Notes under the pieces: generated by a model
Database searches by the model: none
What the model saw: the letters and a program-made list of their open reading frames with translations, nothing else
Told to the model about the DNA's origin: nothing
DNA from: Desulfoscipio geothermicus DSM 3669
Lineage (GTDB): Bacteria; Bacillota; Desulfotomaculia; Desulfotomaculales; Desulfallaceae
Length of the DNA: 64,000 bases
Reading direction: 5' to 3'
Assembly (NCBI RefSeq): GCF_900115975.1
Contig: NZ_FOYM01000008.1
Coordinates: forward strand, 1 to 64,000
Shown here: one piece after another, positions 22,857 through 61,250 of the stretch
Position numbering within the stretch: the first letter of the stretch is position 1
Layout of the letters: each line of letters begins with the position of its first letter
Program-made: the position numbers and the translations under genes

Positions 22857-23312
22857 TCACCTCCCGGTCAGGGCGACGAACTTTTTTAAAATGGTATGTG
22901 TCATTTTTTTAGGCTTGATCACCACCAGTATAGTGTCATCCCCGGCCACGGTACCGATTATTTCCGGCCACCCGGCATGGTCGATGGTGGAAGCCACCCC
23001 CTGGGCCTCCCCGGGTAATGTTTTGATGATGATCAGGTTTTCGCTGCTATCCAGGGATACTACCGAGTCTTTAAACAGCCTTTTCATGCGGTCTTCATTT
23101 CTGGGATTCAGCGGCTCACCGGGAACGGTGTAACGGGAAACCCCGGATTTTCCGGGTACCTTTATCAAACCAAGTTCCTTGATATCCCTGGAAATTGTTG
23201 CCTGAGTAACTGAAAACCCGGCTTTTTGCAACGCACTCACCAGTTCCTCCTGGGTGCTGATTTCCTGATCTTTGATGGTCTCAAGGATTTTTTTATGGCG
23301 CCAGGCTTTCAT
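22857..23312 (-). CDS. argR: Arginine repressor ArgR/AhrC
   Basis: 151 residues. The N-terminal winged helix (about 1-70) includes [18 protein letters not shown]; the C-terminal hexamerisation and arginine-binding domain has [12 protein letters not shown] with its Asp pair. It represses arginine synthesis genes and activates catabolism. No arginine gene is in the window; it is kept here by old synteny with recN. Its start overlaps the end of the methyltransferase gene by 20 bases. Confidence 0.95.
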
Positions 23313-23910
23313 TTTCCTCGTTCACCCTTTCTATAAAAATTAAAAAGGGGGCAGAAGACGACCGGTTGGCAAAAGTAATCCTGAGCACCCCAAAAACCCC
23401 CGGGTCCAAATTTTTTGCCAGTTGATCTACAGCGTCACTTTCATCTTCAGCACCCTGGTGAGCGGTATATACCACAATACTTACTCTTCCCCCCGGTTTT
23501 AATAGATTTAAAGCAGTATGCAGCGCCTTTATCGTGGTATCCGGCCTGGTTGTTTTATTATGGTCGCCGCCGGGTAAATAACCCAAATTAAACATAAACC
23601 CATCCACGGGATGAGTTATGTAGCGGCCCATTTCTTCATGACCGGCGTTAACCAACACAACATTTTTTTCCCTGCCGGCCTGTTTCAAACGCCCGGCGGT
23701 GGCATCCAGCGCCCCGCGCTGAATGTCAAAAGCGAATACTTTGCCGCTATCCCCTACCGCGCCGGCTAAAAAAAGAGTGTCGTAACCGTTACCCGCCGTG
23801 GCATCAACCGCCACACACCCCTCATGTAAAATTTCGCCGATGAACTTTTGCGCCAGAAGGGCGGCATTGCCACGTATACCCGCGAAACGAACGGGTAATC
23901 CGTCATACAT
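23293..23910 (-). CDS. mnmM: tRNA 5-aminomethyl-2-thiouridine methyltransferase-like MnmM (YtqB)
   Basis: 205 residues. Class I SAM-dependent methyltransferase: [16 protein letters not shown] is the SAM loop and VFAFDIQ the acidic strand end. The [15 protein letters not shown] motif is typical of YtqB, now known to be MnmM, which makes mnm5s2U34 from nm5s2U34 in Gram-positive tRNAs. The ATG at 23910 has GAAGG upstream; a GTG four codons earlier overlaps that site and is less likely. It overlaps nadK by 8 bases. Confidence 0.82.
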
Positions 23911-24769
23911 TAATTCCGTCACCTTCTTTTAATTTATCCCGCAATATATCAAAAAATGTTCGGTTATTTAGTTTGATAAATTTAGCCCGGTGATCCGCCT
24001 TCCTGATCCTGACGGTATCACCGTACTGCAGGGGCATCCCGTGCTGCCCGTCCATGGTTAGCATCACCTCGCCCTGGTCGGAAAGCAGGGTGATCCGTAC
24101 CTGGCTATCCGCTGAAATGACCAGGGGCCTGGCCCACAGAGCATGCGGGCATATGGGAGTCACCAGCATCAGGTCCAGATCGGGCGCCACCAGCGGCCCA
24201 CCCGCCGATAGGGAGTAAGCCGTGGAACCGGTGGGGGTGGCAATAATCACCCCGTCTGCGTGGTAACTGTTGAAGTGCTGCCCGTCTACCACGGCGTCAA
24301 ATATGATAAGCCTGGCAAACCCGCCCTTGGTAATTACAGCGTCATTCAGGCCGCTTACCGGCGCGTAGGTTTGCCCACCCCTGATAACGCAGGCTTCCAG
24401 CATCATGCGCTCTACAATAGTATACTTGCCCGTTAGCAGTTGTTCCAGGGCCCCGTAAAGGTGGGGGATGTCCACCTCGGTAAGAAACCCCAGGCGCCCC
24501 AGATTTACGCCGAAAACGGGCACGCCCACCGGAGCCGCCAGTCGTGCGCTGCTGAGCAGTGAACCGTCTCCGCCCAGCACTATCAGGCATTCCACCTTCT
24601 TAACCATTTCCCGGCGGGTACAGCCGGTTGACTGCCTGTCGATCTTGCCCGCGGTTTCGTCGTCCAGGATAAGGGTAACGCCCCTGTCGTCCAGCCAAGC
24701 ATTAATGTCGTTGACCAAGGGTGCTATTTTATCTTTTCCCAGGTTGGATAACAGGCCGATAACCTTCAA
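23903..24769 (-). CDS. nadK: NAD kinase
   Basis: 288 residues from a TTG start with GGAGG 8 bases before it. It phosphorylates NAD+ to NADP+. Family motifs are LGGDGSLLSSAR near residue 65, NLGRLGFLTEVD, and the Gly-rich PTGSTAYSLSAGGP near 180. The product supplies NADPH for dxs-pathway and fatty-acid enzymes, but the linkage to tlyA and recN is simply the conserved Firmicute order. Confidence 0.95.
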   Translation of the reverse strand: MKVIGLLSNLGKDKIAPLVNDINAWLDDRGVTLILDDETAGKIDRQSTGCTRREMVKKVECLIVLGGDGSLLSSARLAAPVGVPVFGVNLGRLGFLTEVDIPHLYGALEQLLTGKYTIVERMMLEACVIRGGQTYAPVSGLNDAVITKGGFARLIIFDAVVDGQHFNSYHADGVIIATPTGSTAYSLSAGGPLVAPDLDLMLVTPICPHALWARPLVISADSQVRITLLSDQGEVMLTMDGQHGMPLQYGDTVRIRKADHRAKFIKLNNRTFFDILRDKLKEGDGINV

Positions 24770-24781
24770 AAGATAAACCTC

Positions 24782-25591
24782 CTACCCCAGGTTCCGGTGC
24801 GCTTCCCGGACAACCTGATCGACCAGTTCGGGCAAACCCTGAACACTGCCGGCGGGTTTTTGGAAATACAGTAGGTATTCAATGTTGCCCTCCGGGCCCT
24901 TGACCGGCGAGTAATCCAGCCCCAATACCGCAATGCCGTTATCTATAGCCGCCGTAGACACTTTTTGCAGCACGCTCCGGTGCACCCCGGCGTCCTTGAC
25001 CACGCCTTTTTTGCCAACGTGCTCGCGCCCCGCTTCAAATTGGGGCTTAACCAGGGCCACCCCTTCAAACTCGTCCAGCAGGTAACTCACCCGGGGCAGC
25101 ACCAGGGTGAGGGAAATAAAAGATACGTCAATGGTCACAAAATCCGGGATGCCCGAAGTAAACACGTCCTTTTCCATGTAGCGGACATTGGTCCGTTCCA
25201 GCACCTTCACCCGCGGGTCGTTGCGCAAAGACCAGGCCATTTGCCCGTAACCAACGTCCACTGCGTAAACCGCGGCGGCGCCGTTCTGCAGTGCGCAGTC
25301 TGTAAAGCCTCCGGTGGATGCACCGATGTCCAGCACCACCTTCCCCCGCAAATTAATGGAAAAAACTTGCAGCGCCCGGGCCAGTTTAAAGCCGCCCCGG
25401 CTGACATAGGGCATTTTTTCCCGGATAGTAATCTCAGTGTCGGCAATATCTACATTGTGACCGGGTTTATTTACCTTTGTGCCGTTGACCAGAACGTCCC
25501 CGGCCATAATGGCGGCCCGGGCCTTTTCCCGGCTGGTAAAGTAGCCTTTCTCAACCAGCAGCAGGTCAATTCTTCTTTTCTCAGCAGCCAC
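24782..25591 (-). CDS. tlyA: TlyA rRNA 2'-O-methyltransferase / hemolysin A family
   Basis: 269 residues. An S4 RNA-binding domain (RIDLLLVEKGYFTSREKARA, about 5-65) precedes an FtsJ-like domain with SAM motif DIGASTGGFTDCAL and the catalytic region near VTIDVSFISL. TlyA methylates cytidines in 16S and 23S rRNA in mycobacteria; Firmicute YqxC is less studied. I chose the GTG at 25591, 4 bases after the dxs stop, with GGAGG about 10 bases upstream inside the dxs end. Confidence 0.9.
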   Translation of the reverse strand: MAAEKRRIDLLLVEKGYFTSREKARAAIMAGDVLVNGTKVNKPGHNVDIADTEITIREKMPYVSRGGFKLARALQVFSINLRGKVVLDIGASTGGFTDCALQNGAAAVYAVDVGYGQMAWSLRNDPRVKVLERTNVRYMEKDVFTSGIPDFVTIDVSFISLTLVLPRVSYLLDEFEGVALVKPQFEAGREHVGKKGVVKDAGVHRSVLQKVSTAAIDNGIAVLGLDYSPVKGPEGNIEYLLYFQKPAGSVQGLPELVDQVVREAHRNLG

Positions 25592-25595
25592 GTCT

Positions 25596-27515
25596 TCATG
25601 AACCTCCGCCCAGGCCAACCAATTTCCTGCCTTTGGCCGCGCGCGTTTTGACCATTTCCCGGGCCGCTTCAACCAGCCCTTGCGCGGTCAGGCCGTATTT
25701 TTCACGCAGCAGCGCTTGGCTACCGTGTTCCACAAATGTATCCGCAATGCCCAGGCACTTCACCTGGATATCATGCAGCCCCCGGGATTCCAACAACTCC
25801 AGGACTGCTGAACCAAACCCGCCGGCCAGGACGTTTTCTTCAATGGTGATTAAACGTCCGGTGCGTTTGGCATGTTCGGCAATGCATGCGGCGTCCAGGG
25901 GCTTGACAAACCTGGCGTTGATCACCGTGGCCAGCACGCCCTGTTCTTTAAGCATGGCCGCTGCCCGGCGAGCCACCGGTACCATGTTGCCCACCGCCAG
26001 CAGGGTGATATCCTTGCCCTCGCTCAGCACCTCCGCTTTGCCCACGGGTATATCCCGGTACTGGCGGTCCAGGGCCACGCCCAGGCCGGTGCCCCGTGGG
26101 TAGCGCAGGGCGCACGGGCCGTTTACTTGCAGCGCGGTGTTCAGCATGTGTTGGAGCTCGTTTTCGTCAGCCGGTGCCATTATGGTCATGTTTGGTATAT
26201 TACGCAGGAAAGAATAGTCGAACAGGCCGTGGTGCGTGGGTCCGTCGTCCCCCACAATTCCGGCCCGGTCAATGGCAAAAACCACCGGCAGGTTCTGCAG
26301 GCAGACATCGTGCAATATCTGGTCGTAAGCCCGTTGTAAAAACGTGGAATATATGGCCACCACAGGTTTCAAACCCGAGATGGCCAGGCCCGCCGCCAGG
26401 GTTACGGCATGTTGTTCCGCAATGCCCACATCAAAAAACCGGCGGGGAAACTTACCGGCGAATTCGGTCAAGCCGGTGCCGCTGCACATGGCGGCGGTAA
26501 TGGCCACGATACACGGGTCCTGTTCGGCCAGTTGCACCAGCGTACGTCCGAATATTTCCGTGTAGGTACTGATATCGCTTTTTTTCAGGCAATCCCCCGA
26601 GCTAATGTCAAATGGCCCGATGCCGTGGAACTTATCCGCCTTTTCCACCGCCGGTGCGTACCCGTGTCCTTTTTGGGTGATTACATGTACCAGCACCGGC
26701 CCGCCCAGGGATTTGGCCTGTTCAAAGGTGTTAAGCATGGCGGATATATTATGCCCGTCAATTGGTCCCAGATAGGTGAAACCCAGTTCTTCGAAAATCA
26801 TCCCCGGTACCACCAGGTATTTAAAGCTATCCTTTAAACGCTCGGCTACTTTGAGCACCTTGGAACCAATGGAAGGAATCCGGCGCAGGATTTGTTCGAT
26901 CTCATCCTTGCCCCGTGAATATTTGGGGTCGGTCCGAATCCTGTTCAAATACCCGGCCATGGCACCTACATTGGGAGCGATGCTCATTTCGTTGTCGTTC
27001 AATACTACAATGATGTCTTTCTGTAGATGTCCGGCGTGGTTCAGCGCCTCAAAGGCCATGCCCCCGGTCATCGCCCCGTCGCCGATAACCGCCACCACGG
27101 AATATTCTTCGCCTTTCATATCCCTGGCCAGCGCTATGCCCAGGGCGGCGGAAATGGAAGTGCTGCTGTGCCCTGTTCCAAAAGCGTCGTGCTCGCTTTC
27201 ATCCGGGCGCGGAAACCCGCTCAGGCCGCCGTGGCAGCGCAAAGTATCAAACCGCTCCCGCCGTCCGGTGATCAATTTATGCACGTAACTCTGGTGACCG
27301 ACATCCCAAATGATTTTATTCCGGGGCGTCTGAAAAATTTTGTGCAATGCCAGGGTCAATTCCACCACGCCCAAATTGGGTGCCAGATGCCCGCCGTTGC
27401 GCGCCACCGTGACGATTATTTCCTCCCTGATTTCACCGGCCAGTTGCTCCAGTTGGGCCACTGTGAGGGCCCTGATGTCGCCGGGAGAATTTACCTGTTG
27501 CAAGTACTTGCCCAA
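25596..27515 (-). CDS. dxs: 1-deoxy-D-xylulose-5-phosphate synthase
   Basis: 639 residues. First enzyme of the MEP isoprenoid pathway: pyruvate plus glyceraldehyde-3-phosphate to DXP, with thiamine diphosphate. The TPP motif [18 protein letters not shown] and [14 protein letters not shown] are present near residues 150-190; transketolase central and C-terminal domains follow ([15 protein letters not shown]). It starts with TTG. It belongs with ispA upstream; oapA and the OLE RNA lie between the two, as in Bacillus halodurans. Confidence 0.96.
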
Positions 27516-27563: not shown

Positions 27564-28142
27564 TTATTTTTTTACGAAGTTAATGCCGGTTATACTGCTG
27601 ATCATGGCCATTATCCGGCCCACCAAGAAAATAACATCATTGGACCGGCTCAAGGCGATTTTTTTGCCGTAAGCCTTACCCCCTACAGTAAAGGCCGCAA
27701 TTAGCGCCGTTATTAGCATATTCAGTATAAACCGGTTGGCATCTTCCCATAAGCTCATGATCCGGAGCACCAGGGCGATGCCCAGCGCGCCGCTGACAGT
27801 GCCGGCTATGTCGCCGATGACATCATTGGCAACATTGGCCACCCGATCAGCGTTACGGATTAGAAACACTCCTTCCCTAGCACCGGGCACCCGTTTGGAA
27901 GCCTTGGCGTGAAAAGGCACCTCACTGGCTGCCGCCACCGATGTGCCTATTATATCGGAAATGATGCCGAAAAGTATAATTAAAGATAGAAATATAAAAG
28001 ATAATAGCAGGCTGTTGATGGTTCTGGATAAAAATTCGGACAATAAAAAAAAGGAAGCGGCAAATATAAAGGAAAGCAAACCGACAAAAAATATGTATTT
28101 GCCGGAAACAGTGGACTTATTGTTTTTCAAAATTGTTTTCAC
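27564..28142 (-). CDS. oapA: OLE RNA-associated membrane protein OapA (DUF21/CNNM-like)
   Basis: 192 residues with about four hydrophobic segments: two N-terminal helices (18-37 and 43-66), a middle amphipathic part with GTSVAAASEVPFHAKASKRV, and helices near 115-130 and 138-155. The middle resembles the DUF21 membrane domain of CNNM/CorB magnesium transporters, without CBS domains. In Bacillus halodurans the same gene follows the OLE RNA and its product binds that RNA at the membrane. The start is doubtful: GTG at 28142 overlaps its own GGAG; the TTG at 28130 lies 11 bases after it. Confidence 0.8.
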   Translation of the reverse strand: MKTILKNNKSTVSGKYIFFVGLLSFIFAASFFLLSEFLSRTINSLLLSFIFLSLIILFGIISDIIGTSVAAASEVPFHAKASKRVPGAREGVFLIRNADRVANVANDVIGDIAGTVSGALGIALVLRIMSLWEDANRFILNMLITALIAAFTVGGKAYGKKIALSRSNDVIFLVGRIMAMISSITGINFVKK

Positions 28143-28144
28143 TC

Positions 28145-28811
28145 CAGGTCGCGTAAATGGCGCGGTTTGAAAGAACCGGTCCTGTATATATACCGAACAA
28201 GTGACAACAATGCGGGTAAACGTTGTGGCTTAGGTCCAGCAGGTTTTCCCAATTTCGTACCGGCTGTCGCCATACCGGCGGTTTCCCTTTAAACGAAAAT
28301 CCGGAATGTTGCCGTGTCCGGGGCTGGATTACCACTTAGTCCACACTGCAATCCCCGCATTGTCCCGTAATTCCGGACAGCCTAGGAGTTTTCCTCTGAC
28401 AGGAGTACCTTTTCCTAGCCTCTTTTGCAATGACGGTTTAAACCTACGTACACTGAGTATGGGCCCATACATCAGTGTACGCATCATCGGCCTCCACCGG
28501 CACCACTCAAGGCAGGCTACACTGCACGCAGCTTTCCCCACGTACAGGTTTATTCCCAAGCCATAATGACTGCCGTTAACAGACACCACGCACTTGGGTC
28601 TCCACGGGGGCAGGGTCAACGCCCACATGCCCTTGCGGGTCGCCCCGCCCCCTTAACTCCCAGTACCGACCCCCGACTGGGCGTCAGCAGCCAGCACCAG
28701 GAACTTCATTGATGTGCCCTTGACGGATTTTTAGGCCCGCCTTCAAAAAAGGGTTCCTGACTAGGATACTGCGTCACTTGTTCATATTTAAGGAATATAA
28801 ATCACCATCAG
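28145..28811 (-). ncRNA. ole: OLE RNA (ornate, large, extremophilic RNA)
   Basis: About 660 bases between ispA and oapA have no credible gene yet are GC-rich and full of pairing segments. Examples are GGGGGCGGG (about 28649-28657) with CCCGCCCC-like partners 30-45 bases on, and CAGTGTAC/GTACACTG (about 28450-28480). OLE RNA is about 600 nucleotides, lies in isoprenoid operons beside oapA, and in Bacillus halodurans sits between ispA and oapA, exactly as here. It forms a membrane complex with OapA and affects growth under alcohol, cold and magnesium stress. Ends are estimates: 5' from the promoter at 28818-28847, 3' from the oapA start. No alignment was run. Confidence 0.82.
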
Positions 28812-28817
28812 TCCATA

Positions 28818-28847
28818 ATTATATCATGGTGTTTGCCCGAACGGCAA
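28818..28847 (-). promoter_or_regulatory. Sigma-A promoter for the OLE RNA
   Basis: On the minus strand TTGCCG (28842-28847), 18 bases, TATAAT (28818-28823), a perfect -10. The start would be near 28811. It lies about 125 bases after the ispA stop, so the RNA can be made apart from the ispA transcript. Confidence 0.6.
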
Positions 28848-28972
28848 ACATCTATTCCGCTTATTTATCACCAATTATGGCCCGCCCGGTTTTTTTTACA
28901 GCCGGGGCACTGTTTTACGACCCCACGCTCAGCCTCGTGCAAGTACGATGCCTTTTAGGAAGGTTATCCAAC

Positions 28973-29863
28973 TTAATAATCCCTGCTGATTACGAAGCGC
29001 ACCAGTTCCCGTAAAAAATCCGCTTCTTCGCCGAAAGATGCCAGGGCGGCCAGGGCGCGGTCCGCCGCCAGCCGAGCATTTTCTCTGGCTGCCTCCAAAC
29101 CGTACAGGGCCGGGTAGGTGGCTTTTTGATTTTTGGCGTCACTGCCCACCGGCTTGCCCAATTTTTGCTCGTCTCCCTGAATGTCGAGAATGTCGTCGAT
29201 TATTTGAAAAGCCAGGCCGAGGTTTTCGGCGTACGTGGTAAGGCTTGCCAGTTGGTCGGCGGATGCGCCGGACAGGATGGCCCCGGCCCGCACCGCAGCT
29301 TTGTACAACGCGCCTGTTTTGCGGGTGTGAATATAATCCAGGGTTGGGGCATCTATGGCAGCGGCGCTGGACAGCGTATCCACCACCTGCCCGCCGATCA
29401 GCCCCATGGTCCCGGCCGCCCCCGCCACCTCGGCTATCACCTGCACCGCCCGTTCCGGTGGAACCAACCCGGATTTGGGCAGGTCGGCCAGCAACGCGAA
29501 GGATAAGGTAAGCAGCGCATCACCGACCAGGATGGCCACGGCCTCGCCGTACACCTTGTGGCTGGTGGGCTTGCCGCGGCGCAGGTCGTCGTTATCCATG
29601 GCGGGCAGATCGTCATGGACCAGGGAATAAGTATGCAATAATTCCAGGGCGCAGGCTGCCGGCATTGCTGCTTCCTCGCCGCCCCCCACCGCCCGGGCGC
29701 CGGCCAGCACCAAGGCGGGCCGCAGCCGCTTGCCGCCGACAAATACGCTGTAGCGCATGGCCTCGTGAATCAAAGGCGGGTAACAATCCGCCTTTGGCAG
29801 GTATTTATCCAGGGCCCGGTTTATTTTTTGGGCCTGTCCGGCCAGTTCCTCCTTGAAGTTCAT
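28973..29863 (-). CDS. ispA: Polyprenyl (farnesyl) diphosphate synthase
   Basis: 296 residues. It condenses IPP with DMAPP and GPP to farnesyl diphosphate. First Asp-rich motif DDLPAMDNDD with RRGKPTSHK follows; the second is DDILDIQGDEQKLGKPVGSD. GGKRLRPAL is near the N-terminus. GAGGAA precedes the ATG. The stop of xseB is one base upstream, so the xseA-xseB-ispA genes are translated together. Dxs, the first pathway enzyme, is further on in the same direction. Confidence 0.95.
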   Translation of the reverse strand: MNFKEELAGQAQKINRALDKYLPKADCYPPLIHEAMRYSVFVGGKRLRPALVLAGARAVGGGEEAAMPAACALELLHTYSLVHDDLPAMDNDDLRRGKPTSHKVYGEAVAILVGDALLTLSFALLADLPKSGLVPPERAVQVIAEVAGAAGTMGLIGGQVVDTLSSAAAIDAPTLDYIHTRKTGALYKAAVRAGAILSGASADQLASLTTYAENLGLAFQIIDDILDIQGDEQKLGKPVGSDAKNQKATYPALYGLEAARENARLAADRALAALASFGEEADFLRELVRFVISRDY

Positions 29864-60964: not shown

Positions 60965-61052
60965 ACCTAAGGCAGCCCGGCTACCATGGTATATTACTAC
61001 CTGCAGGCCCGTGGCTTTGCGTCCCTCCCTTTCGGGAAAGTTTGCCTTTTAT
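60965..61052 (-). promoter_or_regulatory. Cyclic-di-GMP-I riboswitch (GEMM)
   Basis: The minus strand shows, in order: AAAAGGCAAAC, a GAAA-closed hairpin, GGGACGCAAAGCCACGGG, CCT, a variable stem loop, ATGGTAGCCGGGCTGCC. These are the conserved segments of the GEMM-I aptamer, including the tetraloop and its receptor. It binds c-di-GMP. A terminator hairpin follows and then pilD, so it should control pilD-pilA-pilB-pilC. Confidence 0.95.
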
Positions 61053-61250
61053 AGTATTATTAACTTATTTTACGGTATATAGTGTAAATTAAGTTTTGGA
61101 TTTTGTCTATACTTTCCGGCTTAATAGCTGATAATTATCTGAAATAATTATTCTTTCTACAACTAATCGGGTTGTTATCATAAAAACTTTAGATTTCCAG
61201 GAAGATATTAAAGACAATTAATTAAATAATTGAAATCCAATTCAATAATC
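61053..61250. other. AT-rich leader upstream of the riboswitch
   Basis: No gene is seen. The promoter for the pilD operon should be here; several A/T-rich boxes exist (for example TATACC near 61080) but none is a clear -35/-10 pair. Confidence 0.35.

Follow-up and report, generated by a model that had tools for sequence, protein, structure and literature searches.

A full-length OLE RNA locus with its partner gene oapA and a conserved predicted promoter in Desulfoscipio geothermicus and its order

The window analysed here is the whole 64,000-nucleotide stretch of DNA from Desulfoscipio geothermicus, and all positions refer to it. Its gene order around the locus of interest is xseA, xseB, ispA, OLE, oapA, dxs, tlyA, nadK, mnmM, argR and recN, followed by spoIVB and spo0A homologues. 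The OLE RNA gene, ole, is clustered with oapA and isoprenoid genes as ispA-OLE-oapA-dxs on the minus strand, where the farnesyl diphosphate synthase gene ispA (28973..29863; NF045485, 371 bits) is the upstream neighbour and dxs (25596..27515; TIGR00204, 879 bits) the downstream isoprenoid gene. Farther along the same strand are the genes for a TlyA family rRNA methyltransferase (24782..25672; TIGR00478), the NAD kinase NadK (23903..24769; PF20143/PF01513) and the arginine repressor ArgR (22857..23312; PF02863/PF01316). This gene run is the setting described for ole, made of isoprenoid, translation, repair and sporulation genes (PMC12265935). That source cites ArgR as a candidate OLE-binding partner from unpublished work, and argR shares one gene run with OLE in the window. 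Elsewhere in the window, a c-di-GMP-I riboswitch (60968-61056, minus strand, 74 bits) immediately precedes a type IV pilus cluster with a prepilin peptidase, a pilin-like protein, a T2SSE ATPase and a T2SSF protein.

From the ispA stop at 28973 to the oapA start at 28142 or 28130, about 830 bases hold no plausible gene. The sequence-only reading had given about 660 gene-free bases, which is close to the RNA length but short of the actual gap. It had also named beforehand the Rfam OLE model as the search that could refute its assignment, and model RF01071 matches the minus strand at 28793-28185 with an E-value of 4.5e-154 and 535 bits, far above the gathering score of 50. The match runs end to end over model positions 1-616 of 616, and it is the single OLE copy that the model finds in the 3.65 Mb genome. 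The RNA (28185..28793) is thus 609 nt long by the model and about 627 nt from a predicted start near 28811.

The region is strongly structured, as had been claimed. The OLE strand folds with a minimum free energy of −269 kcal/mol, which corresponds to z −7.9 relative to 20 shuffled sequences, and 145 of the 159 consensus pairs are canonical. The loops for dimerisation are GCCC in the P5.1 loop with GGGC in the P6.1 loop, and the P9 loop carries the palindromic GGGCCC. The kissing-loop core, GCC in P5.1 and GGC in P6.1, is conserved among 96 sequences, with GCCCA in 88 and NGGC in 95. OLE is a large membrane-bound RNA known from many Gram-positive bacteria, and an abundant transcript of ~600 nt and membrane localisation are traits of its family. 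It is among the largest structured bacterial RNAs, and we know of no member whose chemical function has been established.

The gene directly 3′ of ole is oapA, for OLE-associated protein A (27564..28142, or to 28130, minus strand), assigned by adjacency, the DxxxD motif and a predicted CNNM fold. Its start is likely the TTG at 28130 rather than the GTG at 28142, since the former aligns with the starts of relatives and has GGAG upstream. Each of the 36 OLE loci that have flanking sequence carries an OapA homologue directly 3′ of the RNA gene. The window protein has the motif NDVIGD, in which DxxxD is D106-V-I-G-D110 and is invariant in 18 homologues; DxxxD has been reported as distinctive of OapA (PMC11332333).

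The sequence-only reading had called this membrane gene DUF21-like. The 192-codon frame has no Pfam or NCBIfam match, including none to Pfam CNNM/DUF21 (PF01595) at any reported E-value, a sequence search among solved structures returned no match, and profile-profile comparison with CNNM domains gave an uninformative probability of 1.9. Eight of the 18 sister sequences match CNNM weakly (best E-value 6.5e-5), and such weak matches in other genomes land on the gene adjoining OLE. The AlphaFold2 model of the window protein (pLDDT 76) is predicted to be a four-helix membrane protein with a CNNM-like fold, aligning with the CNNM transmembrane domain 7m1t over 129 residues (Z 13.4, rmsd 2.2) and with 7cfg (Z 11.9), against 5.9 for the best unrelated entry. 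Hence the label stands by predicted fold and sister sequences only, because the protein's own sequence misses the Pfam model.

Like the OapA family, the window protein adjoins ole, has DxxxD and is predicted to take a CNNM-like membrane fold, but it is too divergent for the Pfam CNNM model. It resembles the CNNM/DUF21 Mg2+ transporters MpfA, CorB and CorC in the predicted fold of the transmembrane domain (7m1t, 7cfg), whereas it is only 192 residues long without CBS or CorC_HlyC domains, has DxxxD and is no member by sequence. Binding of OapA to OLE RNA at 2:1 is a trait of the OapA family.

The other known partners are encoded elsewhere in the genome. The OapB gene has 95 codons, is flanked by map and infA, and matches the solved structure of OLE-associated protein B (7k9b, E-value 1.6e-8). 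OapC/YbxF is encoded by an L7Ae-type gene of 83 codons that has rpoC and rpsL as neighbours and matches YbxF (3v7e/4lck), and a bS21 gene is present. With the full-length RNA and the genes for OapA, OapB, OapC/YbxF and bS21, the earlier claim that this bacterium carries an OLE system is upheld. OLE is reported to be anticorrelated with CNNM/MpfA transporters, and as that predicts, none was detected in the host genome. Across the order, a CNNM gene scores above the cut-off in 36 of 113 genomes and many coexist with OLE, so the rule is a loose one there.

OLE is carried by all 16 genomes of the family, 101 of the 113 of the order and 217 of the 299 sampled in the phylum, and by none of 14 control genomes. 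Within the order, 97 genomes have both OLE and OapA, eight have neither, four have OLE alone and four OapA alone. In three of the OapA-only genomes oapA lies at most 230 bases from a contig start, and several single-partner cases are at contig edges while others are unexplained by that. One genus (G074-G077, 92–96% complete) shows a clean joint absence, with all four genomes devoid of both. Two genomes, G028 and G030, have OLE at an unlinked site and OapA was not detected in either; G030 is 97% complete, and either OapA was missed by the assembly or OLE is there without OapA.

Upstream of ole on the minus strand is TTGCCG-N18-TATAAT, which ends at 28818. Its −35 element TTGCCG (28842..28847; conserved core TTTG) and its −10 element TATAAT with an upstream TG extension (28818..28823) would place the transcript start near 28811, and these coordinates agree with those given by the sequence-only reading. 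The predicted transcript of about 627 nt compares with ~630 nt reported in Halalkalibacterium halodurans (PMC9723947). As a lone pattern the promoter is unremarkable, 10 promoter-like sites being found in 9 kb against 7.4 expected, so that the argument rests on conservation.

The conservation was counted for TGNTATAAT at a distance of 15–100 bases 5′ of GTATCCTAGTC, which is itself conserved. TGNTATAAT occurs in 75 of 96 sequences of the order, against an average of 0.64 in dinucleotide shuffles and 0/96 in a control stretch farther upstream. Together with a TTTG −35 at a spacing of 16–18, it is kept at the same place in 74–75 of the 96, against 0–1 in the control regions. A phylum-wide sample gives 24/40 against 0.34 expected, a fraction slightly diluted by one mis-anchored locus (L162) among the 40. 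All these counts come from related sequences and hence are not independent; the intergenic DNA flanking the promoter is visibly less conserved than the promoter itself.

These data bear on a rival reading, in which the promoter match arose by chance and all OLE comes from ispA read-through followed by processing. The region has about as many promoter-like sites as its shuffles do, and in H. halodurans the cluster has been reported to be transcribed as a single polycistronic RNA (PMC12265935). That much would fit read-through, but a chance match would hardly recur at one position across the order and the phylum sample, and an ole-specific promoter has been reported in H. halodurans (PMC9723947). 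We therefore regard exclusive read-through as improbable. The earlier suggestion that the RNA can be made separately from ispA gains support from the order-wide conserved promoter, which extends the case known in H. halodurans rather than being the first.

Other elements surround the −35. By direct reading, an inverted repeat GTTTGCC-N5-GGCAAAC (28831..28849, minus strand) overlaps it; comparable repeats of different sequence occur in some family members only (L008, L012, L013 and L015), and the repeat was dropped as a general operator for that reason. Short conserved blocks, CATAATTGA and GGCGGGAAT, lie upstream of the ole −35 in the host's family (L001-L016), and they are possibly a regulator site.

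Shorter OLE matches, at 399–447 bits, predominate in one family of the order (G025-G032) and in G069. The short loci are L165 (G029:C26), L166 (G025), L167 (G031), L168 (G069), L173 (G030) and L174 (G028), and also L169-L172. Seven short OLEs examined are without the GGCC P9 loop and miss most of the P9 arm, and they form one clade with a support of 1.0 on a long branch. In six genomes oapA is on another contig than the short OLE. The ispA-oapA gap holds no OLE in G025 (28 bases), G031 (abutting) and G069 (55 bases). Both types occur in genome G029, where the full-length OLE lies between ispA and oapA, and the short OLE is encoded on the opposite strand, flanked by rpmA and spo0B-obg. Most simply, the short OLEs would represent an old second lineage, and most members would have lost the operon copy; transfer of the short OLE from outside is a less simple possibility. 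Shortened P7-P9 variants are described in a published survey, in which we found no mention of two OLE types in one genome (PMC11332333).

The short lineage also bears on whether the region is instead a structured untranslated leader or riboswitch, acting in cis on oapA and dxs with no independent RNA. In favour of this, the OLE region directly precedes oapA, and no intrinsic terminator is convincing above the shuffle background between ole and oapA, as is the case also between ispA and ole. Against it, G025, G031 and G069 keep ispA-oapA-dxs without OLE between ispA and oapA and have the OLE gene at an unlinked site. Moreover, the family that RF01071 matches is known as a stable trans-acting RNA (PMC9723947), and we hold the cis-acting leader to be very improbable. 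A short protein-coding gene filling the interval has a negligible chance and was rejected, since the overlapping frames of 72, 86 and 99 codons are not conserved in relatives, where the long sense frame, stop-free for 107 codons here, extends for at most 89 although the RNA is 85–89% identical.

We are thus highly confident that this is a genuine OLE ribonucleoprotein locus with predicted expression and function, in which the usual isoprenoid cluster encodes the complete OLE RNA together with OapA, its partner at the membrane. By analogy, two routes would yield OLE transcripts, initiation at the ole promoter near 28811 and read-through of ispA transcription, and the 3′ end of the RNA would be processed. 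The RNA would then dimerise through the conserved loops, a dimer of OapA would bring it to the membrane, and OapB, OapC and bS21 would complete the particle. Once assembled, the particle may help the cell adapt to stresses that include cold, alcohols, Mg2+ and poor carbon sources. The dimerisation, the membrane holding by OapA and the completion by OapB, OapC and bS21 are described in PMC12265935, PMC12286853, PMC9723947 and PMC12054373, and for the host we infer these dynamic steps from them.

The locus shares with that of H. halodurans the full-length RF01071 match, the ispA-oapA-dxs cluster, an own promoter and the encoded OapA, OapB, OapC and bS21. It differs in belonging to another bacterial lineage and in having the −35 TTGCCG overlapped by an inverted repeat. 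OLE with oapA in the isoprenoid setting is already known and catalogued, and the window locus adds a textbook example.

On balance, we favour a view in which ole across the order is its own conserved and separately regulated transcription unit, with an extended −10, a TTTG −35 and, in the host's family, upstream conserved blocks, and in which the P9-shortened paralogue lineage of one related family works away from oapA. Such a separately regulated unit would let the OLE dose be set apart from that of the isoprenoid genes.

In summary, the locus is a clean full-length example of OLE with all the known partner genes and with a promoter conservation that is directly testable. The comparison with the related family shows that OLE can move out of the operon without oapA and that one genome can hold two OLE types, which offers OLE specialists a natural experiment.
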